Assembly (NCBI GenBank): GCA_031263585.1
Contig: JAISFN010000145.1
Span: 1-64,000 of the forward strand
DNA length: 64,000 nt
From: Prevotellaceae bacterium
Lineage (GTDB): Bacteria; Bacteroidota; Bacteroidia; Bacteroidales; UBA932
Direction of reading: 5' to 3'
Below, one piece after another: positions 6,881-54,931 of the stretch (the first letter of the stretch is position 1; each line of letters starts with the position of its first letter). The notes under the pieces are model-generated. The model did no database searches. It had not been told where the DNA came from and was given only the letters and a program-made list of their open reading frames with translations. The translations under genes were made by a program, and so were the position numbers.

Positions 6881-8503
6881 CTATTTTTTTGCAGTTTTTT
6901 TAGTTGCGGGTTTAGCTGTTGTTGCTTTTTTGGCTGGACTGACTTTTTTAGCAACAGGCTTAGCTGTTGTTGCCTTTTTAGCCGGAGCGGCGGCTTTTTT
7001 AACGGTAGGCTTAGCTGTTGTTACTTTTTTAGTCGGAGCGGCGGCCTTTTTAACGGCAGGTTTGGCTGTTGTTGCTTTTTTAGGCGGAACTTTTTTCTCT
7101 TCTTTCTTTGCTGCTACTTTCTTTTTTGCAGCTTCTTTCTTTGCAACTCCAGGAAGTGGTCCTTCTTTTGCCAGGTCTGCCAATGTTGTTCTTTTTGCCA
7201 TTTCTAAACTTTTTTTGATTTGTAATGAAGAATTACTAATTTGATTTGTGGATGCAAAGTTGGAAAAATTTTCAACATTTTTTTCATTTTTCAGCTCCGT
7301 ATCGATTTTTTTATCAACAAGTTTATTAACACGGATAAGAAAATCGCTTACGATGTTCATATAATTAATGTACGCCTCGTAAGGATTGGCATAGGGATTG
7401 AAGTATTTATGCACGTTTCCGTCGGAGAAAAATTTTGTACACATATAATAAAAATGGTCGCTTGCCTGTAATCTTCTCCAATCTGTCATCAGTTCCTCAT
7501 CATTCAACTCCGCAATAACATCGCCGTATTCATATATCGAATTAAAGGCATCGTCCTGCAATTCGTTTCCTACCCATGCGCTTAAATCGCGCTCTTCGTC
7601 TGCCCACGAGATAGCGAAAGGCACGTGTATCGGCGCTACCGGCTGATGTTTTTTTGCAGCTTCGCATGGTGTCAGGAATTCGAAATTTGTTGATGAAAAA
7701 ACTTTTTCGGGTAAATAGCGCATAAACTCGAAAATGCCCGTCTCGCGCCGCTGATGTTCGCCGAAAGTTTCGTAATCCATAAAAATATTTACAATTTCTT
7801 CTTTCGGGTCAAGCTCTTTTAACCACCCCACATATTTTTCGGAGGTAACAGGCCATTCTGACCACGCACGGTCGGAAAAGCGAAACGAAATATCGTCGCT
7901 TAAGCGGAAATTGCGCAGCAATACTTTTAACCGAGAGTTGATGGAATTGGTGTACATATAGTTCGGGCTTTTCCATCCTAGTACGTGTTTGGCTCCCTCG
8001 GTAAGCATGGTTGTGAATCCCATACCGGCTACTTTGACCCCTATCTCGTCGGAATAAATCAACTCGGTTAAGCGGAAAGTCGTAGGTTTTTGCCCGAAAT
8101 ACCATTCGATTAACTGGCTGTGCAAAGCAACCTGGCGCTCGAATTCGGCCACGTCTTTTAAAACGGCCAGCGAGTGGGCATACGTTTCGCATAAAAACTC
8201 GACGCACCCTGTAGCGGCAAGTTCCCTGAAGCTATCGAGGGCTTCGGGGGCGTATAATTCCATTTGTTCAATTGCCTGCCCTGTTATCGAAAATGCAAGT
8301 TTAAACTGTTTGCCGTATTCTTTTATCAATTGCAGCAATAGTTTATTCATGGGGGTATAACAACGTTCCGCAATTTTACGCATAATGGAACGGTTGTTAA
8401 ACTCATCGTAATACTGGTGGCTGCTTCCAATGTCAAAAAAGCGGTAACGACGCAAACGAAACGGTTGGTGTACCTGGAAATAAAAACATAACGTCTTTTT
8501 CAT
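6881..8503 (-). CDS. glycoside hydrolase family 57 protein with Lys/Ala/Pro-rich C-terminal tail
   Basis: MKKTLCFYFQVHQPFRLRRYRFFDIGSSHQYYD and MDYETFGEHQ are GH57 motifs; tail is KKATTAKPAVKKAAAPTKK repeats. Confidence 0.9.
   Translation of the reverse strand: MKKTLCFYFQVHQPFRLRRYRFFDIGSSHQYYDEFNNRSIMRKIAERCYTPMNKLLLQLIKEYGKQFKLAFSITGQAIEQMELYAPEALDSFRELAATGCVEFLCETYAHSLAVLKDVAEFERQVALHSQLIEWYFGQKPTTFRLTELIYSDEIGVKVAGMGFTTMLTEGAKHVLGWKSPNYMYTNSINSRLKVLLRNFRLSDDISFRFSDRAWSEWPVTSEKYVGWLKELDPKEEIVNIFMDYETFGEHQRRETGIFEFMRYLPEKVFSSTNFEFLTPCEAAKKHQPVAPIHVPFAISWADEERDLSAWVGNELQDDAFNSIYEYGDVIAELNDEELMTDWRRLQASDHFYYMCTKFFSDGNVHKYFNPYANPYEAYINYMNIVSDFLIRVNKLVDKKIDTELKNEKNVENFSNFASTNQISNSSLQIKKSLEMAKRTTLADLAKEGPLPGVAKKEAAKKKVAAKKEEKKVPPKKATTAKPAVKKAAAPTKKVTTAKPTVKKAAAPAKKATTAKPVAKKVSPAKKATTAKPATKKTAKK
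6905..7090 (-). repeat. imperfect ~60-bp tandem repeats encoding the (V/A)KKAAAPxKKxTTAKPxxKK tail
   Basis: Repeated ttagctgttgttgcttttttagccggagcggcggcttttttaac units. Confidence 0.75.
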
Positions 8504-8701
8504 ATTTTTTATTATTTATTTACCGATCTGTATGTATAAAATATTTACTTGCCGGGGTTATCAGTTTTCTCAAGATTTATACGAGTACGATCTGCTAAAA
8601 TCGATAAATACCCTCATCTACAAAACAACTATATAGACTTATGTATAGTATAATAGTCATTATTATCAGGATGTTTACGATAATCAATATGCAATTATCA
8701 A

Positions 8702-9985
8702 TTATATAAGTTGCTGATAAATTGATTTCACAATATGTGCCGTATCATCCCAACTGAGCGAATTAACTTCTTTCATCCCATTTTTGTTCAATGTTTTTGC
8801 CAGGATCGGGTAAGCCAGCAAGCCGTGTATGGCGTCGGCCATGGCATCGACATCCCAAAAATTGACTTTAAGCGCATGCTTTAGCACCTCGGCTACACCC
8901 GATTGTTTCGAGATGATAACGGGTACGCCGGTACGTATGGCTTCGAGAGGCGAAATACCAAAGGGTTCCGAAACCGAAGGCATTACATATACGTCGCTGT
9001 GGGCATACATCTGATTCACCTCATCGCCTTTTAAAAAACCCGTAAAATGGAAATTTGTACCTATACCCAGCCGTCCTATACGTCGTACCATACGGTTCAT
9101 CATATCGCCGCTGCCTGCCATAACAAAATGCACATTGGGCATACGTTTGAGAACTTTTTTAGCCGCCTCAATAAAATATTCGGGGCCTTTTTGGAATGTA
9201 ATACGCCCTAAAAAGGTTACAACTTTTTCACTGATACTGCGCTCGACATTGATGGCTTTGCGTCCCGAAAAATCGACGGCATTGTGAACGGTGTACACTT
9301 TCGACCTGTCAATACCGTAGCGGGTAATTACAATGTTGCGTGTAAGATTGCTGACGGCCATAATAGCATCGGCCATTTCCATCCCGAAGCGTTCGAGGTC
9401 GTAAACCGTACGGTTCACATTTTCGCCGCTACGGTCGAATTCGGTTGCATGAACATGTATTACCAAAGGCTTACCCGATATGCGTTTGGCGACAATCCCT
9501 GCCAGGTATGTGAGCCAATCATGCGCGTGAATTATGTCAAAATCATACAAACGAGCGATTGATGCCGCTACAAAGGCATAACGTATAACTTCTTCCATGA
9601 GGTTAGTACCGTATTTACCCGAAAAATTGTATTTCCTGCCCAGATGGCTAAACCCTTCTGTTTTTTTACTGTCGCTACTTTCCTTCATCAGTTCCTCATA
9701 ACCCTCAATTCCGAGGTATGGGATAAGACCAGAACTTACGGGCAAAAACTGTATATTTTTCCAAAACTCTTCAAAACCTGCAACATTATCAGGCGTTTCA
9801 ACATCACTTGCATTAATAATCTTACCAATGCTGCTATCTTCGTCTCCCATTGCCTTGGGCATAACAAAAAGTATCTCAACCCCCTGTGCGGCCAATCCTT
9901 TTGTCAGTCCGTAGCTGGCTGTACCTAATCCCCCCGAAATGTGCGGTGGAAATTCCCACCCAAACATTAATACTCTCATAAACAA
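8702..9985 (-). CDS. glycosyltransferase family 4 (glycogen synthase-like)
   Basis: 427 aa; MRVLMFGWEFPPHISGGLGTASYGLTKGL, IIHAHDWLTYLAG, SVSEPFGISPLEAIRTGVPVI. Confidence 0.9.
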   Translation of the reverse strand: MFMRVLMFGWEFPPHISGGLGTASYGLTKGLAAQGVEILFVMPKAMGDEDSSIGKIINASDVETPDNVAGFEEFWKNIQFLPVSSGLIPYLGIEGYEELMKESSDSKKTEGFSHLGRKYNFSGKYGTNLMEEVIRYAFVAASIARLYDFDIIHAHDWLTYLAGIVAKRISGKPLVIHVHATEFDRSGENVNRTVYDLERFGMEMADAIMAVSNLTRNIVITRYGIDRSKVYTVHNAVDFSGRKAINVERSISEKVVTFLGRITFQKGPEYFIEAAKKVLKRMPNVHFVMAGSGDMMNRMVRRIGRLGIGTNFHFTGFLKGDEVNQMYAHSDVYVMPSVSEPFGISPLEAIRTGVPVIISKQSGVAEVLKHALKVNFWDVDAMADAIHGLLAYPILAKTLNKNGMKEVNSLSWDDTAHIVKSIYQQLI

Positions 9986-10102
9986 ATTATTATTTGTAAA
10001 TTATTAATCGTTAGTCATTAATGGTTAAATGTCAAGAGTTATGCGTTATCTATCAAATATCAATTAATGAATACTTTGTCCTTTACATTTAACGAATATG
10101 AC

Positions 10103-12046
10103 TCATTCATGGTCGGCAATCATACGCATAATGCGCAACAATTCACTCACACTCCATGCCTGCGATATACACCCTCCTGAGTTATGCGGGGGATCGCCGT
10201 CGTATACTTCGGAGATGGAACAAATACCGCTCATAGTCATATCTTCTTCAAAATCGTTAACCAGCATTTTTGCTTTGTTTAAAAACGCTTTGCCGTGCAG
10301 TTTGAAATTTGCTTCGACATAATGGCCCAAAAGCCATACCCACGCAGTACCTTGATGGTAGGCATTGTCGCGGGTCTCCTGATTACTCTCGTAAACACCC
10401 TGGTATAACGGATTACGGGGCGATAATGAACGGATGCCCTTCATGGTAAGCAAGTCCTGGGCTACTTTATCAAGTATTTTTTCCTTGATATCATCGGTAA
10501 TCGGACTGAACGGCAAGGATACCGCCATTAACTGGTTGGGGCGCACAAATATATTTTGCCCAGCCTCGTCCACATAGTCGGCAAGGCATTGGCGGTCTTC
10601 GCACCAGAATGTAGGATAATAATTTTCTTCGATAAACGCCGGGATATCCTTCCATGCTTTTACAAATTTAGTATCGCCTTGCTCTTTGGCTAATTCCAAC
10701 GTATAGCAAACGGCATTATACCATAAAGCATTTATTTCAACCGCATACCCGGCGCGTTGAGTAACGGGTTTGCCGGCAACAACGGCGTCCATCCAGGTAA
10801 GTGCTTTGCCCGTTTCCCCTGCCCAGATAAGTCCGTTCTCGTGCATACTGATGCTGGAATTTTCCCCATCTCGGTAAGCTTTGAGTATGGATTTCATTTT
10901 TTTACCGTAATCCTTCCAAACACTGGCATTATCGTCAAGCACTGCGGCATATTGTTGAATTGCCCAGAAATACCATAAAGGTGCATCGGCGGAATTGTAT
11001 GCAGCCTGATCTTTTCTACCGATATTCGGGAATAACCCGCCTTTCAACTCATGCGACATGGTGTCAAGCACGGCTTTGCAGGTTTTAACATCATCATCTA
11101 CGGCAAGCGTTAACCCAGGTAGGGCGATAAACGTATCGCGCCCCCAACGGCCAAACCAAGGGTAACCGGCAACAACTTCGGTATTGTGCCCGCGGTGGAT
11201 GATAAACTGCGAGGCTGAATTGCGCAGGCAATTTAAAAAACTATCCTTGGGCGGACGGCTTAATAATTCCTTTTCAAACTTACGCGAAAGAGTATTGGCC
11301 GGATGCTCTTTCAACGATGCTGTAAAAACAATGCTCTCGCTTTTTTTTATCGGCATTTCGAAGTATCCTGGGGTAAATAAATCCTCCTGAAAATCGTACC
11401 CTCGTTTTAATTCCTCGGTATATTCGATATTGTAATACCAGTCGGGGTTGGCTATAAACTCGTTTTTTTTGTTTATCTGCATGTATAACGACGGGTAGCC
11501 GTTATATAATTTCGATGAAATACCATTTTCCACAACTTTATAATGGGTATCGGCATACATGTTGGCACGGCTCAGTTTATGAATGTTACGATATGCCAGA
11601 AACGGGCGCAACCGTATTTTTGTAGGCGAATGCACATCCATTAACGTATAGCGTATCATTAACTGTGCCTCGTTATGTATCATAAGTATTTCTTTACGCA
11701 ATACTACACCTCCTACCCGGTAAGTAATGGTAGGTGTGGGCTCGTATTCGAAATCGATAATATACTTGTGCCCGCGAGGCTCGTAAACATTTGGGTATTT
11801 ATGAATGCCTAAATTAAAAAGCTGTTCGTGTTGTATTATCGTTTCATCGAGTGATGATAGCAATACATGGTTTTCGCCGCCGAACTCCTCAATAGGGCAA
11901 ATTAATAAACCGTGATATTTACGGGTATTACAACATACAATGGTAGTACTCATGTATCCGCCTGCACGGTTTGTACTCAACATTTCGCGCGCAAGTGAAT
12001 ATTCGAGATTTACCAGCTCACTTTTATTAAATTTTAAATAGGCCAT
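10103..12046 (-). CDS. glycogen debranching enzyme (amylo-alpha-1,6-glucosidase)
   Basis: 647 aa; EYSLAREMLSTNRAGGYMSTTIVCCNTRKYHGLL, WFGRWGRDTFIALPGL, SVSEVYDGDPPHNSGGCISQAWS-like C-term. Confidence 0.93.
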   Translation of the reverse strand: MAYLKFNKSELVNLEYSLAREMLSTNRAGGYMSTTIVCCNTRKYHGLLICPIEEFGGENHVLLSSLDETIIQHEQLFNLGIHKYPNVYEPRGHKYIIDFEYEPTPTITYRVGGVVLRKEILMIHNEAQLMIRYTLMDVHSPTKIRLRPFLAYRNIHKLSRANMYADTHYKVVENGISSKLYNGYPSLYMQINKKNEFIANPDWYYNIEYTEELKRGYDFQEDLFTPGYFEMPIKKSESIVFTASLKEHPANTLSRKFEKELLSRPPKDSFLNCLRNSASQFIIHRGHNTEVVAGYPWFGRWGRDTFIALPGLTLAVDDDVKTCKAVLDTMSHELKGGLFPNIGRKDQAAYNSADAPLWYFWAIQQYAAVLDDNASVWKDYGKKMKSILKAYRDGENSSISMHENGLIWAGETGKALTWMDAVVAGKPVTQRAGYAVEINALWYNAVCYTLELAKEQGDTKFVKAWKDIPAFIEENYYPTFWCEDRQCLADYVDEAGQNIFVRPNQLMAVSLPFSPITDDIKEKILDKVAQDLLTMKGIRSLSPRNPLYQGVYESNQETRDNAYHQGTAWVWLLGHYVEANFKLHGKAFLNKAKMLVNDFEEDMTMSGICSISEVYDGDPPHNSGGCISQAWSVSELLRIMRMIADHE

Positions 12047-21590: not shown

Positions 21591-22151
21591 ATGAAAAGGA
21601 AAATGTATAAAACAGTGATGATTGCCGTAGCGGCAATGTTTATCGCAGGCGCGGCAAACGCGCAAACAGAAAAAAGTAATTCCGAAAGCAAGACAGTAAC
21701 AGGACAACTTGCTCAAAGATTGGATAATTATGATCTCATCCATGTTTATTGGAGTTTTTATGATAAAGGACGTGTTCCTTCTGCATTAAGATGTAGCATC
21801 GTCAATGGGGATTTTACCGTTGTTTTGCCTGCTATTCCTCAAGATTACTTGCAAAAACCTTCTAATTTTTTTCAAAGCCCGGTAAAAACGAGTAATAATG
21901 TTAACATAGGACAAGCATGCTTTTTTGCTTATACTTCTGCTTCTCGAAAATATAGTGGAGATTTATATCCTGTGGGTAGGGGTGGTGAAGGACATTATAT
22001 TTACGCTGCCGGAGACATTAATATAACAGGAGAAACTCCTCTCGGCAAACTCAATTTATTGCTAAAACAAGGTTGGAATAGCGTTGTGAAGGATAAACAA
22101 CAAACATGGATTGTATTGGAAATACCATTTGATTGGATGTGGGATCAATAA
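21591..22151 (+). CDS. secreted hypothetical protein, paralogous signal peptide
   Basis: MKRKMYKTVMIAVAAMFIAGAANAQ near-identical to the two following genes. Confidence 0.6.
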   Translation: MKRKMYKTVMIAVAAMFIAGAANAQTEKSNSESKTVTGQLAQRLDNYDLIHVYWSFYDKGRVPSALRCSIVNGDFTVVLPAIPQDYLQKPSNFFQSPVKTSNNVNIGQACFFAYTSASRKYSGDLYPVGRGGEGHYIYAAGDINITGETPLGKLNLLLKQGWNSVVKDKQQTWIVLEIPFDWMWDQ

Positions 22152-22190
22152 TTTGTCCGAATAAGGAGTAGACGTAAAACATAAATAGAA

Positions 22191-22901
22191 ATGAAAATGA
22201 AAATGTATAAAATAGTGATGATTGCCGTAGCGACAATGTTTATTGCAAGTGCGGCAAACGCGCAAACACTGGACGGGACAACCTGGTCTTATGCTGAACG
22301 GGTATATGGAGACAGTAAGATTTCCGAAGTTACAACGTATTTTGCATTTACCTCGCCGACAAGTGTAATTTGGTATTTTGGCGCTCCCGACAACTTTGTT
22401 TTTCCGGTGGGTTTTGGTTCTTACGATGCTAAAAATAGCGTTATAACTTTTTCACACACAAACCCTTTGCATAAAAAAATTTCGTTGTATTACGGAGATA
22501 ACACAATAGTATTCGGTTTCCGTATTGTAAACGGTCAGGCACCAATGACTTGTAAGAATGAAAAAATAATGAGACGCTTTACGGGAGAACAACCGTTCAA
22601 ATTAAACAGGGAAAAATACAGTTTAAAACCAAATTCCAAATTGGCAGGAACAAATTGGCGTTATAATATTGATAATAATAATAAAGGTACATTATATTTT
22701 AAATCAGCGAACGAAGCGCTAATTGACGGAGAAATACATCCTTATGTCTGTTTGGGAAATAGCGTATCTATTAAGTCGGGTGACAATCTTGGAGAAAATA
22801 TGTTAGGAATATACAATAGCGAAAGTATTAAGTTATGTCGTGGCGGGATCGAAAATAAAATGCGTGATATATGTGTAATTATAGAAAGAATTAGGGAATA
22901 A
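22191..22901 (+). CDS. secreted hypothetical protein, tandem paralog
   Basis: MKMKMYKIVMIAVATMFIASAANAQ; KLAGTNW motif; aligns to 22946-23620. Confidence 0.65.
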   Translation: MKMKMYKIVMIAVATMFIASAANAQTLDGTTWSYAERVYGDSKISEVTTYFAFTSPTSVIWYFGAPDNFVFPVGFGSYDAKNSVITFSHTNPLHKKISLYYGDNTIVFGFRIVNGQAPMTCKNEKIMRRFTGEQPFKLNREKYSLKPNSKLAGTNWRYNIDNNNKGTLYFKSANEALIDGEIHPYVCLGNSVSIKSGDNLGENMLGIYNSESIKLCRGGIENKMRDICVIIERIRE

Positions 22902-22945
22902 TTATAGATGTCCGAATAAGGAGTGGACGTAAAACATAAATAGAA

Positions 22946-23620
22946 ATGAAAAGGAAAATGTATAAAACAGCGATGATTGCCGTAGCGGCAATGCTTATCG
23001 CAGGTGCGGCAAACGCACAATTAAAAGGAACGGTTTGGTCACACACCCAACGAGGCAATACTCACAGCGAATTGAAAGAGCAAACACAGTATTATGTCTT
23101 TACTTCGGAAACAAAAGTAATTGTGTTTCTTAGCGCGGAAAGGAATTATATGTATCCCGTAGGTTTTGGCGATTATAATCCCAAAAATCAAACGGTTACT
23201 TTCCTCGATTCCGACCCTTTAAGCATTATGGCAGGCAGGGAAAGGCGAACTCTGACAGCTAAATTCAGTATAAAAAACGGACAGGCAGAACTGTCTGCCA
23301 AAGGGGAAACTATAATATTCACCAAAGAAAAATACAGTTTAACTCTTTCTTCAAAATTAACGGGAACAAAATGGAACGCAACTTCCCAATACGGGCAATA
23401 CAATAATGTTACGGTTCAGTTCCGCACTGCCAATGAGGTGTTGATTGATGGCAAGGTATACCCATACGCACTTATTGGCAATCAGTTATCAATCAGTTTT
23501 GACTCTGATGAAGCGCTTTTGGGAGAACTCCATGATAACAGCAAAAACCGAATTTCTTTGTATTTTGGCTCTGCGTTCAATCATATAAAAGATGAAACAA
23601 GCATGGTTCTGGAAAGATAG
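22946..23620 (+). CDS. secreted hypothetical protein, tandem paralog
   Basis: MKRKMYKTAMIAVAAMLIAGAANAQ; KLTGTKW motif; aligns to 22191-22901. Confidence 0.65.
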   Translation: MKRKMYKTAMIAVAAMLIAGAANAQLKGTVWSHTQRGNTHSELKEQTQYYVFTSETKVIVFLSAERNYMYPVGFGDYNPKNQTVTFLDSDPLSIMAGRERRTLTAKFSIKNGQAELSAKGETIIFTKEKYSLTLSSKLTGTKWNATSQYGQYNNVTVQFRTANEVLIDGKVYPYALIGNQLSISFDSDEALLGELHDNSKNRISLYFGSAFNHIKDETSMVLER

Positions 23621-46300: not shown

Positions 46301-47429
46301 TAAGAAACGAGAAAAAGTTTTTGTTTTAATATCTCCCAAAAACAGGACTGTTTATAATTTCCGTGGAGAATTAATTCGCGAAATAATACAAAAAGGGTAT
46401 AAGGTATATGCAACCGGTCCCAATTTGATTGATATTGAGCGAATACACAAGCTAGGGGCTTGTTTTATCGAAATCCCCAACAATAAAAACGGCATTAATA
46501 TCTTTTCCGATTTAAAATACTTCTTTTGCTTATTAAAACTATTCTTTAAATTAAAACCCGAGATAACGTTGGGATATACGGTTAAACCGGTAATTTATGC
46601 TTCCATAGCCGCTCGAATTGCGGGCGTAAAATCGGTTAATGCAATGATAACAGGCGCAGGGTACTTGTTTATCGCAAAAACCAATAAAGCTAAACTTTTA
46701 AAAAAAATAGTATTTATCTTGTATTCTTTAGGGCTAAAGTGTGCGCGCAATATTATATTCCAAAATGCTGATGATAAAAAGGAATTTATTGTAAATAAAC
46801 TGGTTTCGGAAAATAAATGTTATTTGATAAATGGTTCCGGCGTCAACATGACTAAATTTAGCCCTACGGATTATCCAAAAAAAATAAGCTTTTTTATGTT
46901 GTCGCGGATCATGCACAGCAAAGGCGTAAAAGAATATCTGGAGGCCGCGCGTATTGTAAAGCGGCAATACCAAGAAGTAAAGTTCATGTTATTGGGAGCT
47001 ATTGAAAGTATCCAGGATTCGATTCCCCAAGAATTTATTAAAGAGTATATAACTGACGGAACAATAGAATATTATGGAGAAACTTCGGATGTTAAATCAT
47101 ACTATTCAAAGTGTTCAATTTTTGTATTACCGTCTTATAGAGAAGGTACTCCTAGAACGGTGTTGGAAGCCATGTCGATGAAACGGCCGATTATTACAAC
47201 AGATGTGCCCGGATGTCGAGAAACAGTAATTGATGGGAAAACAGGCTTTCTAATCCCGCATAAAGATGCGAATACGTTAGCTGATAAAATGATCTTTTTT
47301 ATCGAGAACAAAGAACAAATTCCTATTATGGGAGAAGCTGCCTTCGGCTATTGTAAAGAAAAATTTGACGTACGAATTGTTAATAAGCAAATACTATCTA
47401 TTTTATTGAACCAACAAAATGAGGATTAA
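46278..47429 (+). CDS. glycosyltransferase family 4 (PglA-like)
   Basis: YTVKPVIYASIAARIAGVKSVNAMITGAGYLF, LPSYREGTPRTVLEAMSMKRPIITTDVPGCRETV. Confidence 0.92.
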   Translation: MWRNIMNNKKREKVFVLISPKNRTVYNFRGELIREIIQKGYKVYATGPNLIDIERIHKLGACFIEIPNNKNGINIFSDLKYFFCLLKLFFKLKPEITLGYTVKPVIYASIAARIAGVKSVNAMITGAGYLFIAKTNKAKLLKKIVFILYSLGLKCARNIIFQNADDKKEFIVNKLVSENKCYLINGSGVNMTKFSPTDYPKKISFFMLSRIMHSKGVKEYLEAARIVKRQYQEVKFMLLGAIESIQDSIPQEFIKEYITDGTIEYYGETSDVKSYYSKCSIFVLPSYREGTPRTVLEAMSMKRPIITTDVPGCRETVIDGKTGFLIPHKDANTLADKMIFFIENKEQIPIMGEAAFGYCKEKFDVRIVNKQILSILLNQQNED

Positions 47430-47688
47430 AAAAGGAATTAAGCTCCGGAATATAGCAGGCGAAAATGTAGTGATTATGCAAGGCCGGACGGGAGCCGATA
47501 TGACAAAGATAGTTTCGTTTAATACTACTGCCGAATGGTTGTGGAATAAGCTTTATGATAAAGAATTTTCGATAGAAGATATCGCCGGTTTATTAAGCGG
47601 AAACTTTAAAGTGGATAAGGCCGCCGCCGAGTCGGATGCCAAAGCATGGGTCAAAAAGCTATCCGATTGCAAGATACTGGAAGCATAA
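47419..47688 (+). CDS. PqqD-family protein (RiPP recognition element-like)
   Basis: 89 aa; KLRNIAGENVVIMQGRTGADMTKIVSFNTTAEWLWNKLYDKEFSIEDIAGLLSGNFKVDKAAAESDAKAWVKKLSDCKILE. Confidence 0.85.
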   Translation: MRIKKGIKLRNIAGENVVIMQGRTGADMTKIVSFNTTAEWLWNKLYDKEFSIEDIAGLLSGNFKVDKAAAESDAKAWVKKLSDCKILEA

Positions 47689-48758
47689 TTTTGCCCGACT
47701 CATTGGAAGTTGTTCAGCTTTTTGCACTTTTAAAGCTGGCATTGTGGGGAACTCCTCCCGATGATAATTTATTTTCTGTAGCCGATTGGCGAAAAATAAT
47801 TGATTTATCTACGTATCATGGCGTTATGGCTGTAGCTTTTGATGGCATGATGAAACTGCCCGTAAACCGGCAACCCAATCGGAATAGCAAACTGGGATGG
47901 GGGATAAATGTGGAGGCTGTTGAGCGCAGGTATGCCCGCCAAACGGCAGTTGCAAACGAACTGCTAACACTATTCCGTGAAAATAACATCAATATCTTGT
48001 TATTTAAGGGAATCGGGATTGCGCAGTATTACCCTGTTCCGGCGCATCGCGAGTTTGGCGATATCGACATATATTTATTTGGGAAACACCGGGAAGGAGA
48101 TAATGTCTTACTGCGCCGCGGAGCTACGAAAAATAAACATAACACCAACAAACATACAACGCTAAGCTACAAAGGCGTACCGATTGAAAACCATAGGTTT
48201 TTTTTAAAAGAAAAATTGCTGAATGATATTCTTTTAAAACAGCTATTAGGCAGTAAAGCCAGCGGCGCCGAAGAGATTTTAGTTTCCCCTCCCTGTTTTA
48301 ATGTATTGTATATAATGTGCCATATGCTCAATCATTTTACATGTTCGTTTGTTATCCGCTATTTATGCGATTGGGCATTATTGCTGAAAGCAAACGGCGG
48401 GAAAATCGACTTCGGAAATTACCGGGAAGTTTTGTCGCGTGCAGGGTATTTAAAAGCGGCCGATGCCGTAAGCTCATTAGCGGTGGCTTATTTGGGGCTT
48501 GATGCGGCAATTGCTCCTCCGTTTAAAGCAGACCCGCTTGTTGAAAATAAAATTATTGCCGATATGTTGAATCCGATATTGCCTCCGCAGGAAAAAGATC
48601 CATCGATAGTAAAAATAATCGCCTATAAATTCAAATTATTGAAATACCATAGGTGGAAATATAAATTGCTGTATCCCGGGCAATTCGCTAAAATAATTTT
48701 CAGCAAAGCTATGTCTTATATCCGCCGCCCAAAATCCATCTTTTTATTTAAAAGATAA
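47646..48758 (+). CDS. nucleotidyltransferase family protein (PF14907/NTP_transf_5-like)
   Basis: NINILLFKGIGIAQYYPVPAHREFGDIDIYLF motif; start codon uncertain. Confidence 0.8.
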   Translation: MGQKAIRLQDTGSIILPDSLEVVQLFALLKLALWGTPPDDNLFSVADWRKIIDLSTYHGVMAVAFDGMMKLPVNRQPNRNSKLGWGINVEAVERRYARQTAVANELLTLFRENNINILLFKGIGIAQYYPVPAHREFGDIDIYLFGKHREGDNVLLRRGATKNKHNTNKHTTLSYKGVPIENHRFFLKEKLLNDILLKQLLGSKASGAEEILVSPPCFNVLYIMCHMLNHFTCSFVIRYLCDWALLLKANGGKIDFGNYREVLSRAGYLKAADAVSSLAVAYLGLDAAIAPPFKADPLVENKIIADMLNPILPPQEKDPSIVKIIAYKFKLLKYHRWKYKLLYPGQFAKIIFSKAMSYIRRPKSIFLFKR

Positions 48759-48897: not shown

Positions 48898-50577
48898 ATG
48901 CTGTCGATTATTAAAATACTTCCGAAGCAATATAGGCGGCAGGGCGTAGGGGTTGCGCTGTCGGCGCTGTTGCGGGCCATACTCAATTTTGCAGGGCTGG
49001 CCGCTATTATCCCTGTATTGATATTGATACTCGACCCTCAGGCAATCGGCAGTAATTCTGCTTTCGGCAAGTTCCGTTTGTGGGCAGGTGTCGGCGGCGA
49101 TACCACTTTTGCATTTGTAATTTGCATAATAATACTGGGCTTTATTATTGTTAAAAACGTGGCAAATGTAATGTTGGGGACATTCCAAATTAATTATGTC
49201 AACAAAATTTACCGGTTGTTTTCTAAACGGCTTTACATACGCTATTTCCAAAAAGGACTTCTTTTTATAAAAACAAATCACTCAACAGGTTTATCGCACA
49301 AAATCAATGGTGTATGTTTTACGTTTGCCCAAAATGTACTGTCGCGTTTCTTTACAATGATTGGCGAAGGAGCATTGCTGTTTTTCATGTGGCTTGCCTT
49401 ATTGTTTTATTCATGGAAGGCCGCATTGTTAAGCTTAGTTTGTTTTATGCCTATTATGTGTTTGTATTTATGGATGATAAGACATAGGCTGGCACACTGC
49501 GGAAAAGCTGAAAACGAGCTTAGGCGTAAGCAAGTTCGCATAGTTACCGAAACATTTAAAGGATATGCCGAGATACAGATTAACAATGCTTTCCCTTTGC
49601 TGCTAAAACGTTTTGGGGAAGGCTTGGGCGATATTACCCGTTTTCGTAAATATATCGATCTGGTTTTGCGCATTCCGGGCGCGGCGATGGAGTGCCTTGT
49701 AGCAGGCGGGATGATTTTGCTGGTACTACTAAGCAGAGGCGACAGTTCGGCTAAGGTGGCGTTTAGCATGTACGCCCTGGCCTTGTTGCGCATGCTGCCC
49801 GCCATACGTACACTAATTATCGGATGGACGCAAATTAAAAACAATTTATATACCGTCGATATTGTAAAAGAGGCAGTTGTACAAAATAATACCCCCGCTG
49901 GGGCGTTCGCAGAGCCTGTTTCGTTCAATGATAAAATAGAGTTAAAGAATGTAACATTCGCTTTCCCTGACACTGGCGAGCCGATAATCCGCAATTTATC
50001 AATAAGCATTGCCAAGGGCGAACATGTAGGCATACAGGGTATTTCGGGTGTTGGCAAAAGCACATTGTTTAACCTGTTACTGGGGTTTTACACACCGCAA
50101 CAAGGAAGTATAACAATTGACGGCAGGGAGTTGAACGCGACGACCTGCGAATTATGGCAAAGGATGATAAGCTACGTTCCACAAGATATTTTTATTATGG
50201 ATGCTACGCTTGCCGAGAACATAGCTTTTGGCAACGAAAATATCGACAGGGAAAAGCTAGCCGAAGCCTTGAACCAGGCCGACTTAATGGATTTTGTGCA
50301 AACGCTGCCCCACGGCATCGATACCGGCATAGGCGAAGGCGGTTGCCGCCTGTCGGGAGGGCAACGACAGCGGATTGGCATTGCACGCGCATTTTATAAA
50401 CAAGCCGAGGTGATATTTTTTGATGAGGTAACATCGGCGCTTGACCAGGGTAGCGAGGAAAAAATAAGCCGGGCGATAAACAAACAGGCCGACGGCAAAA
50501 AAAACACTACGCTTGTCATAATCAGCCATCGACCGTCAACGCTAAGGTTTTGCGACAGAGTGATAAAACTTGAATAA
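48898..50577 (+). CDS. ABC transporter, fused permease-ATPase (exporter type)
   Basis: N-terminal TM region; GISGVGKSTLFNLLLGFYTP, LSGGQRQRIGIARAFYKQAEVIFFDEVTSALD. Confidence 0.93.
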   Translation: MLSIIKILPKQYRRQGVGVALSALLRAILNFAGLAAIIPVLILILDPQAIGSNSAFGKFRLWAGVGGDTTFAFVICIIILGFIIVKNVANVMLGTFQINYVNKIYRLFSKRLYIRYFQKGLLFIKTNHSTGLSHKINGVCFTFAQNVLSRFFTMIGEGALLFFMWLALLFYSWKAALLSLVCFMPIMCLYLWMIRHRLAHCGKAENELRRKQVRIVTETFKGYAEIQINNAFPLLLKRFGEGLGDITRFRKYIDLVLRIPGAAMECLVAGGMILLVLLSRGDSSAKVAFSMYALALLRMLPAIRTLIIGWTQIKNNLYTVDIVKEAVVQNNTPAGAFAEPVSFNDKIELKNVTFAFPDTGEPIIRNLSISIAKGEHVGIQGISGVGKSTLFNLLLGFYTPQQGSITIDGRELNATTCELWQRMISYVPQDIFIMDATLAENIAFGNENIDREKLAEALNQADLMDFVQTLPHGIDTGIGEGGCRLSGGQRQRIGIARAFYKQAEVIFFDEVTSALDQGSEEKISRAINKQADGKKNTTLVIISHRPSTLRFCDRVIKLE

Positions 50578-50679: not shown

Positions 50680-50841
50680 ATGAATATTATGAAGAAAACA
50701 AACAACGAAATGCGTACCCTGATGGAGTACGAGGCGCCTACAATTGAAATTGTAGAAGTAATGGTAGAGCAAGGATTTGCGGCTAGCGGTCCTACATCTC
50801 CTAGTGAAGATGGTGATGGTGAAGATGGTGGCGACTGGTAA
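50680..50841 (+). CDS. short RiPP-precursor-like peptide (53 aa; 50 aa if starting at 50689), absent from the supplied ORF track
   Basis: MNIMKKTNNEMRTLMEYEAPTIEIVEVMVEQGFAASGPTSPSEDGDGEDGGDW*; 26-nt gap to the next gene, A-rich leader. Confidence 0.75.
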   Translation: MNIMKKTNNEMRTLMEYEAPTIEIVEVMVEQGFAASGPTSPSEDGDGEDGGDW

Positions 50842-50867: not shown

Positions 50868-52871
50868 ATGAAAAAGATATTTTATTTATTCATTGCGGTT
50901 GCAATATTTTTAGCTTGTAATCAGAATAATGATTTTGATATTCAAAGCAATAATAGTTCTAATGCTATAAGTTTTGTCGTAGAAAAAATGGACTTAGAAG
51001 AAGGTTTTTGGGATACGCTCTCTACAAAAACCTCAATAAACAGCGAAAATGCTAAAATAAGTTGGGCTAAAGGTGATAGACTAGGTGTTATAAAAATAAA
51101 TAACAATGGTTTTGTACCCGGACAGAAGCATTTGTTTTCGATAGTTCAATGTGGCGAATACATATCTAACGGTGAATGTAGCCTTATTAGCGATCCTGAG
51201 AATTTCAAGAAAGGAAAACATTTAGCTTATTATCCTTATGATTTAGTTGCAGTAACTCAAGAGCAGTTAACATTCAATTTACCCGAACAAGTTCAGTCAA
51301 GTAATGGAACAATGGATAACTTTAGCAATTGCGATTTTATGTATTCAAACATTACAACTGTTGATGCTCATGACAATGTAGGAATTATTCATAAAGATGA
51401 CTCGGAAAATAATAGTGATAAATTTTATTTTAAACATGCGCTCGCTTTTTTAGAGTTTAATATCAACCATTTAACAGAAAATGAAACCTTATTCCATATA
51501 TCTATGGAATCAGATGTTGATATGTTTGGTCAATCTGTTTTTATAAACAGTACAGGAGATATTAACTATGGAAATTATACTAATACTACAACTTTACACG
51601 TAAACTATACCTTTGGCAACAATGACAGCTACAAAGCTTATTTATTAATAAGTCCGACTCCCGAGAGTGGAAAAGGGGAAAATATTACTATTAGATTAAC
51701 TACAGACAAGGCTATTTATGAAATAGTGAAACAAACGCCTCCGGTCGGTTTCCAGTCAGGTTATCGCTATAAAGTTAATATTACAGGATGCGACCCTGTA
51801 ACTCAAACATGGGATGGTTCTTCATGGTCTTCTCCTTCTATTGAAGGTAGCATTATTAAGATATCTAATGCCAGCGAATTATCATGGTTAGCACGTTTAT
51901 GTAATAATGCAAATTTTGCAGGTAAAGGAGATATCACTGAATCGTCATTGGAAGGTTACACTGTAATATTAACAAATGATATTTATTTGAACAACAAGGA
52001 ATGGACTCCGATAGCAAATGCTGCCGGTAAATTTAACGGGATATTTGACGGAAATGGGAAAACGATATATGGATTAAGCATTAGTAATGCAGAAAATTTA
52101 AACAAAGGATTATTTGGAGTTAATAGTGGAGTAATCAAAAATGTAACCATCTACAATCCGTCTATTTTATCTAACAAAAACAATGTTGGCGGTATTGTTG
52201 GTAATAATCAAGGGATAGTTGAAAATTGTCGGGTTTTCGGAGGCACAATTACCGGTAATTCGATTGTTGGAGGTATTGCAGGAAATAATCTGGGTACAAT
52301 TATAGCTTGTGTTAACACATCGGCGATACAAGCAACTAATTCAACTGGTAATAGTTTTGCCGGCGGTATTGCAGGGGTAAACGGCGCCGATTCGGACGCT
52401 ACCCACTATCTGATAATAGCCTGCCTTAATAATGCTGATATTACTGCTACTCATGCAGGCGGTATTGCCGGAAGACAAATTACCAGGACTACAAATGATA
52501 AATCGCTTTCAGCTATAATTTCGTGTGTAAATAATAGTGAAAACATAAGTGGTAATGTTGCCGCAGGTTCTATTGTAGGGCAATTTCAATATGGTTTTGT
52601 AAAATACTGTTTGTACAATAATAACGAACTTCTTATACATGGTACAAGAAATGTAAGTAATACTGATTATGCTCCAATAGAAGGTATAGGCGGTACAAAT
52701 AATTCCAATTCTAATAAAGCTTATTCCGGTATTTCGGACATTACTAAGGCATTTTTTAATAATTTCCTGAACCCCCCTCTAACAAACGATAATTCTATGT
52801 TCAAGACAGATGCTAATGATTGGAAATGGAGTGCAGCAGCAGGAGTTTTACCTGCATTGACGACGAATTAA
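50868..52871 (+). CDS. fimbrillin-like surface lipoprotein with GLUG-type repeats
   Basis: Lipobox IFLAC; repeats GLFGVNSGVIKNVTI, GGIVGNNQGIVENCRVFGGTITG, GGIAGNNLGTIIACVN. Confidence 0.85.
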   Translation: MKKIFYLFIAVAIFLACNQNNDFDIQSNNSSNAISFVVEKMDLEEGFWDTLSTKTSINSENAKISWAKGDRLGVIKINNNGFVPGQKHLFSIVQCGEYISNGECSLISDPENFKKGKHLAYYPYDLVAVTQEQLTFNLPEQVQSSNGTMDNFSNCDFMYSNITTVDAHDNVGIIHKDDSENNSDKFYFKHALAFLEFNINHLTENETLFHISMESDVDMFGQSVFINSTGDINYGNYTNTTTLHVNYTFGNNDSYKAYLLISPTPESGKGENITIRLTTDKAIYEIVKQTPPVGFQSGYRYKVNITGCDPVTQTWDGSSWSSPSIEGSIIKISNASELSWLARLCNNANFAGKGDITESSLEGYTVILTNDIYLNNKEWTPIANAAGKFNGIFDGNGKTIYGLSISNAENLNKGLFGVNSGVIKNVTIYNPSILSNKNNVGGIVGNNQGIVENCRVFGGTITGNSIVGGIAGNNLGTIIACVNTSAIQATNSTGNSFAGGIAGVNGADSDATHYLIIACLNNADITATHAGGIAGRQITRTTNDKSLSAIISCVNNSENISGNVAAGSIVGQFQYGFVKYCLYNNNELLIHGTRNVSNTDYAPIEGIGGTNNSNSNKAYSGISDITKAFFNNFLNPPLTNDNSMFKTDANDWKWSAAAGVLPALTTN

Positions 52872-52931: not shown

Positions 52932-53798
52932 ATGTTCCAATACACTATTGCTTCATTAAGCATTAACGTTTCGGGTAAGGGTTTAAACCATATAACAGGG
53001 TTTATGCCTTTTGCGGCGTCGGCAGGTACGGCGCCTTTGCTTGATGTCAGCCTGGATACCCCGCTCGATAATTGGGATATGCCGCCTTTATACAGCTTCG
53101 TTTTCGACGACGAAGATATTTTGTGCGATTTTGCTTGCGCCTGCGGCGCTTACCTCTTTCGTATGGAAGCGCCCGGCGGGCAATTACTCTTAACGGAAAC
53201 CGTGTTCGTAAATAACGCTTTTTACATGCGCACCAATATGGGCGGGCACACGCCTGCCCGCTGGTTGCGCTTTGCAATGTGGGTAACATTCGGTATTGCC
53301 GCACTTTCGCAGCGAACGGTAGCCATGCATGCATCAACAATTATGTACGGGGGTAAGTCGGCGCTTTTTTTGGGCGAATCGGGTACGGGCAAAAGTACCC
53401 ATACCCGCTTGTGGCTAAACAATATCCCCGATACCGAACTGCTTAACGACGATAGCCCGTTCCTGTCCGTCAAAAACAATAAGGTATTTGTTTACGGATC
53501 GCCCTGGAGTGGTAAAACACCCTGCTATAAAAACGCCTGCACACCTATTGCGGCTATCGTACGGCTATCGCAAGCTCCTAATAATAAAATTAACCGGCTA
53601 AAAAGCATTGCGGCATTGGGGGCCTTGTTGCCATCATGTCCTCCGGCCTTTATGTACAATAGCCTACTCTCGGATCAAGTGTATGAGATATTGTCGGTTG
53701 TTTTGCAAAAAGTACCGGTTTATACACTCGAATGCCTGCCCAATGCTGCCGCGGCTCAATTAGTACTGTCATCGCTACAATACGACGGCTATTTATGA
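52932..53798 (+). CDS. HPr kinase/serine kinase-like protein
   Basis: ALFLGESGTGKSTHTRLWLNNIPDTELLNDDSPFLSV...VYGSPWSGKTPCYKNACTPIAAIVRLSQA. Confidence 0.85.
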   Translation: MFQYTIASLSINVSGKGLNHITGFMPFAASAGTAPLLDVSLDTPLDNWDMPPLYSFVFDDEDILCDFACACGAYLFRMEAPGGQLLLTETVFVNNAFYMRTNMGGHTPARWLRFAMWVTFGIAALSQRTVAMHASTIMYGGKSALFLGESGTGKSTHTRLWLNNIPDTELLNDDSPFLSVKNNKVFVYGSPWSGKTPCYKNACTPIAAIVRLSQAPNNKINRLKSIAALGALLPSCPPAFMYNSLLSDQVYEILSVVLQKVPVYTLECLPNAAAAQLVLSSLQYDGYL

Positions 53799-54259
53799 AA
53801 CTAATCCCGAATGAAGCTTATTTTGCCGAAATAGCTGATATGCTCTCGGATGGTCAAAGCGTGCAACTGCGAGTAAAAGGCGGCAGTATGCGCCCATACC
53901 TGCGTAATGAGAAAGATATTGTTGTGCTGTCTCCGTTTAATCCATTCAAATTGAAAAAAGGCAGGATTGTGCTATTCAAATACCGGAACCGTTATCTTCT
54001 TCACCGGATTGTAAAGTGTGAAAATAACCGGTTCATGATACAAGGCGACGGTGTTTGTAAAGCTAGCGAAAAAGCATTACCAAGCGATGTTATCGGCATG
54101 GTGGATACAATAATCCGTCCGGGTAAAAAAACAGTTCCAGCCAATAGTCTTTGTGCCATGTTATATTGGAAAATCTGGCTTTTTGCAATACCAATAAGGC
54201 GCTATTTATTAGTATTTTATGATAAGTTTTATATCAAAAATAACAAAATATATCCATAA
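53795..54259 (+). CDS. S24/S26-family peptidase-like protein
   Basis: LRVKGGSMRPYLRNEKDIVVLSPF, KKGRIVLFKYRNRYLLHRIVK (Ser + His motif); ATGA overlap with the kinase gene. Confidence 0.8.
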   Translation: MKLIPNEAYFAEIADMLSDGQSVQLRVKGGSMRPYLRNEKDIVVLSPFNPFKLKKGRIVLFKYRNRYLLHRIVKCENNRFMIQGDGVCKASEKALPSDVIGMVDTIIRPGKKTVPANSLCAMLYWKIWLFAIPIRRYLLVFYDKFYIKNNKIYP

Positions 54260-54319: not shown

Positions 54320-54931
54320 ATGAAAAAGTGTATTTTTATTTTACTCGCAATTTTTACTATAAATTTTGTTTTTGCCCAAGAGCAACCGGAAGATGTTAAG
54401 CAAAACGCATCCTCAGATTTACAACGCTTTGCCATTAAAACAAATTTCTTATACGACATGACTGGAACAGTAAACCTAGGAGTTGAGTTTGGCTTATCTT
54501 ATAATTTGTCGTTAGACGTTTCAGGGAATATAAATCAATGGAAATATTCAACGGACAGTCAGCTTAAACATATCTTAATTCAACCTGAATTACGCTACTG
54601 GTTGAAAGAACGTTTTAATGGGCATTTCTTTGGAGTACACCTGCATTATGCAAATTTTAACATAGGAGGCATCGAGGTCGGTCTCTTCCACCTGAAAGGC
54701 ATCCGCTATGATGGTAACTTATTTGGGGGCGGATTATCCTATGGCTATCGCATGGTTGTTTCTAAAAATGTCCATATTGAAGCAACTGCAGGGCTTGGTT
54801 ACGCGAACCTTGCTTATAATGTATATTATAAAAAAACAGGTATAAAATCTGGACCTGGATATGAAAGCCGTAACTGGTTTGGTCCAACAAAAATCGGTTT
54901 AAATTTCATATATGTATTTAATCACAAGTAG
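54320..54931 (+). CDS. DUF3575-domain secreted protein
   Basis: IKTNFLYDMTGTVNLGVEFGLSYNLSLDVSGNINQW; YDGNLFGGGLSYGYRMVVSKNVHIEATAGLGY. Confidence 0.85.
   Translation: MKKCIFILLAIFTINFVFAQEQPEDVKQNASSDLQRFAIKTNFLYDMTGTVNLGVEFGLSYNLSLDVSGNINQWKYSTDSQLKHILIQPELRYWLKERFNGHFFGVHLHYANFNIGGIEVGLFHLKGIRYDGNLFGGGLSYGYRMVVSKNVHIEATAGLGYANLAYNVYYKKTGIKSGPGYESRNWFGPTKIGLNFIYVFNHK

Follow-up and report, generated by a model that had tools for sequence, protein, structure and literature searches.

A lipoprotein-paired small peptide family of Bacteroidota as candidate precursors of an RRE-guided, RiPP-like system

A 53-residue open reading frame (ORF) in the genome of a Prevotellaceae bacterium probably encodes the precursor of an RRE-guided, post-translationally modified, RiPP-like system that acts with cognate surface lipoproteins; we put the probability of this reading at roughly 0.7. 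It is directly supported by a family of relatives, their two-part anatomy and the selection acting on it, the pairing of peptide and lipoprotein genes, the association with a cassette of modification genes, and the conserved catalytic motifs encoded in that cassette. The ORF lies in a stretch of 64,000 nucleotides, analyzed as a whole and hereafter called the window, and was pointed out in a preliminary description made from the sequence alone. To our knowledge, few RiPPs have been characterized from gut Bacteroidales. Here, a large family of putative precursors for which neither Pfam nor NCBIfam holds a model goes together with a compact cassette of kinase, RRE, peptidase and exporter genes, and this cassette is present in cultured species such as Phocaeicola massiliensis DSM 17679. 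If the reading is correct, these peptides are candidate substrates for HPrK-related kinases and stand-alone PqqD proteins found in the absence of lasso machinery, and they connect the modification of peptides with surface lipoproteins and with fimbriae.

The peptide ORF occupies a 290-nt gap between the genes of an MsbA-like ABC exporter and a lipoprotein (Table 1), with an A-rich stretch just before its ATG. Its translation matches exactly the 53 residues reported in the preliminary description, which had placed the ORF in this same gap behind an A-rich leader. The peptide had no family match in Pfam or NCBIfam, and scanning 71 relatives for a known peptide family returned a single weak match (PT-VENN, Pfam), which we took as chance. 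Because the family profile has matches in 152 of the 300 genomes searched from the window's bacterial family and the N-terminal block is under purifying selection, a chance ORF can be rejected, and the ORF is confirmed on these sequence comparisons as a real gene. The start codon may be the second ATG (50689, MKKTNNEM...) instead of that at 50680, since many homologs begin with MK shortly ahead of the conserved Tyr.

Table 1. Features of the peptide locus and the neighboring cassette, in window positions.
Feature	Position	Strand	Alternative start	Basis and remarks
PqqD-family protein, stand-alone RRE (leader-peptide chaperone)	47419..47688	+		PF05402, E = 1.7e-9
NTP_transf_5 (uncharacterized nucleotidyltransferase)	47646..48758	+		PF14907, E = 4.2e-41
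MsbA-like ABC exporter	48898..50577	+		PF00005, 2.2e-31; TIGR02203, 1.9e-82, under its cut-off
Precursor-like peptide, 53 aa	50680..50841	+	50689	Translation and family relatives
Conserved 20-residue block YEAPTIEIVEVMVEQGFAAS, residues 17-36	50728..50787	+		Putative RRE-recognition segment and conserved Ser36
Hypervariable tail GPTSPSEDGDGEDGGDW, putative core	50788..50838	+		Family tail composition and pN/pS 0.54
Fimbrillin-like lipoprotein, C-terminal GLUG-type repeats	50868..52871	+		PF13149 Mfa_like_1 on residues 1-311; Glug weak
HPrK/PEPCK-superfamily kinase-like protein	52932..53798	+		Invariant motifs; TIGR04352 in family members
S24/S26 signal-peptidase-like protease	53732..54259	+		PF00717, 3e-5; TIGR02228, 3.7e-9, below cut-off
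DUF3575 protein	54320..54931	+		PF12099, 1.5e-57; system membership uncertain

Across 126 clustered homologs, the peptides share an ungapped 20-residue block, YxxPx[VI]E..[VI]E[VI]x[VI]ExGFAxS, in which the motif that the preliminary description had named as recurring in Bacteroidota (YExPxIExVExxxExGF) is recognizable. Tyr and Pro of YxxP are present in all 126, an invariance partly built in by anchoring the alignment on this motif, and the next hydrophobic position is V, I, L or M in 120. Counted from the Tyr, Glu stands at +13 (E30) in 122 homologs, Gly at +15 (G32) in 107, Phe or Ile at +16 in 117, Ala at +17 in 98 and Ser or Thr at +19 (Ser36) in 112, rising to 120 when +20 is included. 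The tails that follow average 17 residues, lack Cys, consist of 2% Lys+Arg, 24% Asp+Glu and 18% Gly, and carry an aromatic residue among the last three positions in 84 of the 126 homologs. Seven independent close pairs, with small counts, gave a pN/pS of 0.12 in the block vs 0.54 in the tail, which has the sense expected of a leader and a core; the coding constraint on which the preliminary description had made its peptide depend is thus present in the block. A conserved putative leader followed by a variable putative core is also the precursor layout expected of RRE-dependent RiPPs. In the window peptide, the boundary falls at about residues 33-36 (F-A-A-S), in line with the leader/core split drawn earlier. 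In one genome (L086:9376-9462 / L174:9983-10069), a peptide copy has the conserved Ser as its very last residue (...VEQGFAAS*) and is not followed by a lipoprotein; this copy is either decayed or a tail-less form.

The figure of 152 genomes was obtained with a profile built from 71 members (profile A2), which supersedes a single-sequence search at a loose threshold that understated the distribution (112 of 300 genomes). Single genomes yielded up to 21 profile matches (about 20 copies), whereas with profile A1 the genome of the window showed a single copy. Further relatives come from additional families of Bacteroidales and from one more group within the class, and named carriers include P. massiliensis DSM 17679, P. 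faecalis, Bacteroides ndongoniae and B. rodentium. In B. ndongoniae, four peptide genes lie within 15 kb (L188, 2133-17220), each beside a large lipoprotein gene; this local expansion lends itself to tests of how specific peptides are for their lipoproteins. The family appears undescribed: open-access papers searched on RiPPs of Bacteroidales, small ORFs linked to fimbrillins, PqqD together with HPr kinase, and HPr-rel-A gave no account of it, although one may exist beyond these papers.

The genes flanking the peptide encode the machinery expected of such a system. Compared with the PDB, the PqqD-family profile is closest to the lasso RRE TfuB1 (2.7e-6) and then, weakly, to TbiB1, both lasso B1 RREs, and the window protein gave weak matches to NCBIfam lasso_PqqD models; a predicted PqqD-fold RRE encoded alongside the peptide is a hallmark of RRE-dependent RiPPs. 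The NTP_transf_5 ORF overlaps the PqqD gene, so its true start is probably further in. The ABC exporter showed no match to a C39 peptidase domain. In the kinase-like protein, Walker A GxSGxGKSTH, NDD and GxPWSG are invariant across 14 aligned homologs, of which 13 match TIGR04352 HprK_rel_A weakly (best 3e-8). The window protein itself scores 13.7 bits against that model's curated cut-off of 200, so its assignment as an HPrK-related kinase is a remote, sequence-based one; its AlphaFold model, from a shallow alignment, has a mean pLDDT of 50, and a genome-contig scan with the kinase alone gave no match. The protease likely starts at 53795 (MKLIPNEAYF) and scores 24.1 bits for PF00717 (S24; cut-off 23.3). 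Its GxSMxP Ser and HR His/Arg boxes are invariant in all 12 homologs aligned, and it matches SEC11 and SPase I in the PDB. DUF3575 genes were also seen near peptide-lipoprotein pairs at three other loci. Directly 5' of the cassette lies an exopolysaccharide/capsule-type cluster (25980-47429) in which, read by eye, UpxY/NusG-like and Wzc-like proteins, glycosyltransferases and two CitE-like lyases are encoded. Further upstream, three secreted proteins in tandem with near-identical signal peptides (MK.KMYK..MIAVA.M.IA.AANAQ) form a local expansion (21591-23620).

From relatives of these proteins we infer RRE binding, Ser phosphorylation, cleavage, export and a role with the lipoprotein. YxxP is the characterized recognition motif of lasso RREs (PMC12710340), and its presence in the peptides supplies the putative leader recognition motif of an RRE-dependent RiPP. 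The YxxPx[VI] strand of the block would be the docking site of the PqqD-type RRE, which would present the peptide to the HPrK-related kinase; the most likely target of this kinase would be the near-invariant Ser36 at the leader/core boundary. In BsfA, whose YxxPxL motif starts at -17, Ser3 is phosphorylated by an HPrK-type kinase, and the reaction is faster with the RRE (PMC10368454). Ser3 of BsfA therefore corresponds to Tyr+19, the position held by Ser or Thr in 112 of the 126 peptides, an analogy that amounts to a single coincidence of spacing. HPrK-type kinases and nucleotidyltransferases decorate lasso peptides, and in pseudomycoidin the nucleotidyltransferase acts on the phosphate (PMC8498205); NTP_transf_5, where present, may likewise decorate the Ser phosphate. 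Trimming near G-F-A-x-S would probably be the work of the SipW/SEC11-like S24/S26 peptidase, with two candidate cut sites: after Phe33, in the lasso register, or after Ser36, in the A-x-S register of a signal peptidase. The ABC protein would then export the peptide, which would most likely act at the cell surface with the fimbrillin-like lipoprotein, as a ligand, cap or assembly factor.

The phosphosite is where the best-surviving alternative departs from this scheme. It accepts a peptide that is RRE-guided, cleaved and exported, and takes the conserved Ser as merely part of an A-x-S cleavage site, with the kinase modifying tail residues or the lipoprotein; it is compatible with our reading in all but the phosphosite. 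The small residues at the Ala (98/126) and Ser (103/126) positions fit the -3/-1 rule of signal peptidases, and a SipW/SEC11-like peptidase is indeed encoded in the cassette. However, several Bacteroides-type members replace the Ala with Q, E or I (GFQAS, GFEGS and GFIES) and keep the Ser/Thr, which favors Ser as the modified residue. Moreover, members without Ser/Thr at position 19 mostly have a Ser at 20 or 21 instead, a pattern that a modified hydroxyl explains better than a cleavage rule does. We regard the cleavage-site explanation as rather unlikely, if the most serious competitor. The preliminary description had suggested that the Ser/Thr residues of the core would suit the neighboring kinase; the link to the kinase holds up, with the boundary Ser a better candidate than the variable Ser/Thr of the tail.

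The most constant neighbor of the peptide is a downstream lipoprotein gene. In the window, this gene begins 26 nt past the peptide stop codon, and the N-terminal part of its product (residues 1-311) matches PF13149 Mfa_like_1 with E = 2.3e-12 (47.9 bits, gathering cut-off 27), a domain that the full-length scan missed. For 127 peptides, the sequence extends far enough downstream to judge: behind 104 of them, an ORF with a lipoprotein signal follows on the same strand within 300 nt, and about ten more judged by reading bring the total to ~114 (about 90%). The gap has a median of 19 nt. The majority of the paired lipoproteins that were scanned matched fimbrillin models at best below cut-off; the term "fimbrillin-like" therefore holds for the window gene and is an analogy for many of the others. 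Because nearly every peptide gene has a lipoprotein gene as its partner, the peptide most likely acts with its lipoprotein; a surface ligand, cap or assembly factor is our guess at the most economical role.

The association with the cassette is very strong at the level of whole genomes. Within the 300 genomes of the family, the kinase occurs in 139 of 152 peptide genomes vs 27 of 148 others (odds ratio 48, inflated by relatedness), leaving 27 genomes with a kinase and no detected peptide and 13 with a peptide and no kinase. Outside the family, where 52 genomes were compared, the profile of the kinase matched 14 of 15 peptide genomes vs 3 of 37 others (p = 5e-9, kinship ignored), and the three matches in peptide-less genomes were much weaker. 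Of 54 genomes, 17 have their nearest peptide ≤10 kb from the kinase, whereas uniform placement predicts 1.4. In P. massiliensis and P. faecalis, all seven genes form one run (peptide-lipoprotein-PqqD-NTP_transf_5-ABC-HPrK-S24); the order peptide-HPrK-S24-PqqD-NTP_transf_5-ABC occurs in two other Bacteroidia (MS502-39 and PG1894_26), and peptide-lipoprotein-HPrK-S24-PqqD-NTP_transf_5-ABC in a further genome, with similar runs in two more. The preliminary description had tied the peptide to its PqqD and kinase-like neighbors and had looked to homologs near similar gene sets for support; both are borne out by these counts and by cassette-adjacent peptides in many genomes. The most constant cassette parts are PqqD, kinase and peptidase; NTP_transf_5 is often missing and the ABC gene sometimes. 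In one genome, the HPrK-like kinase and the S24/S26 peptidase are fused into a single ORF (L146:9236-10747), which supports the two acting together. Other, unusual in-frame fusions of the kinase (L205:7889-10066, L206:6678-8849 and L208:7564-9624, all on the minus strand) have an upstream part that reads as IspG in two genomes and TruB in one. In five genomes, the cassette stands on its own and the peptide-lipoprotein pairs are scattered, which implies a central cassette acting in trans; since many peptides lie far from the cassette, such action must be assumed.

This scatter, together with a lipoprotein pairing more constant than cassette adjacency and a window cassette that comes after an exopolysaccharide cluster, could suggest that the peptide serves the fimbrillin-like lipoprotein in unmodified form, as a small chaperone, plug or targeting factor, the cassette having its substrate elsewhere, for example in the exopolysaccharide or the lipoprotein. 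We consider this improbable, as it sits poorly with the very strong genome-level co-occurrence with the kinase inside and outside the family, with the three cases in which the peptide directly precedes the kinase gene, and with the pairing of a lasso-like RRE in the cassette with a YxxP motif in the peptide; a gap-free block with a hypervariable tail would also be unusual for a plain partner protein. A regulatory leader ORF for the fimbrillin gene (attenuator or arrest peptide) would suit a short ORF a median of 19 nt 5' of a surface-protein gene, but a conserved first part with a variable C-terminal end is the reverse of a typical arrest peptide, no Rfam element was found, and both the kinase co-occurrence and the loci with a kinase directly following are left unexplained, making this explanation very unlikely. 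Other candidates were also discarded: an RNA leader element (no Rfam match), a defense system (PADLOC matches only of the ABC-ATPase type) and plasmid carriage (one weak match only).

Least credible of all is a lasso peptide precursor: the PqqD protein is closest to lasso B1, the kinase, nucleotidyltransferase and exporter recall phosphorylated lasso clusters, and the YxxPxL-type leader motif is present, but the window genome lacks both the B2 peptidase (PF13471, above cut-off in only 1 of 14 cassette genomes and there on a non-cassette contig) and the lasso cyclase (PF00733, a partial sub-threshold match on another contig and none among the window neighbors). In one genome (G089), PF00733 cyclase-like and PF13471 B2 matches lie within 3 kb on contig C1 (~8345-11987), possibly a genuine lasso cluster separate from the kinase cassette on contig C13.

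Returning to the RRE-guided, RiPP-like reading, we tentatively propose, at somewhat less than even odds, an apparently undescribed class of Bacteroidota peptides that are Ser-phosphorylated and possibly further decorated, in which one central cassette matures up to ~20 different lipoprotein-paired precursors whose products are displayed on fimbrillin-like surface proteins or assembled with them. Several known systems share parts of this arrangement. Type V pilus fimbrillins (Mfa/Fim) resemble the window's downstream lipoprotein through PF13149, but no small peptide with an RRE-recognition motif was found described beside fimbrillins in the literature searched. Mined Bacteroidales RiPP clusters (radical SAM and peptidase-containing transporter types) also have leader/core precursors, yet the survey mentions no type with an HPr-type kinase, a stand-alone PqqD or an S24 peptidase (PMC10352776). 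The NCBIfam system HPr-rel-A (TIGR04352, with PqqD_rel_X TIGR04353) and SynChlorMet (ScmC, ScmD) likewise combine an HPrK-related kinase with a PqqD-like chaperone, and the window kinase and PqqD match their models remotely, far under the curated cut-offs. We know of no precursor named for HPr-rel-A, nor did the open-access literature yield a paper on it, whereas a precursor family is visible here. Closest are the phosphorylated lasso clusters (paeninodin, BsfA of Bradymonas and pseudomycoidin), which share a PqqD/B1 RRE, an HPrK-type kinase, an ABC exporter and often a nucleotidyltransferase, as well as a YxxPx[LVI] precursor motif with, as in BsfA, a Ser at Tyr+19 (PMC10368454, PMC8498205). 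In place of their B2 peptidase and lasso cyclase, the window genome has an S24/S26 peptidase, and the putative precursors here are many and scattered, each with its own lipoprotein gene.
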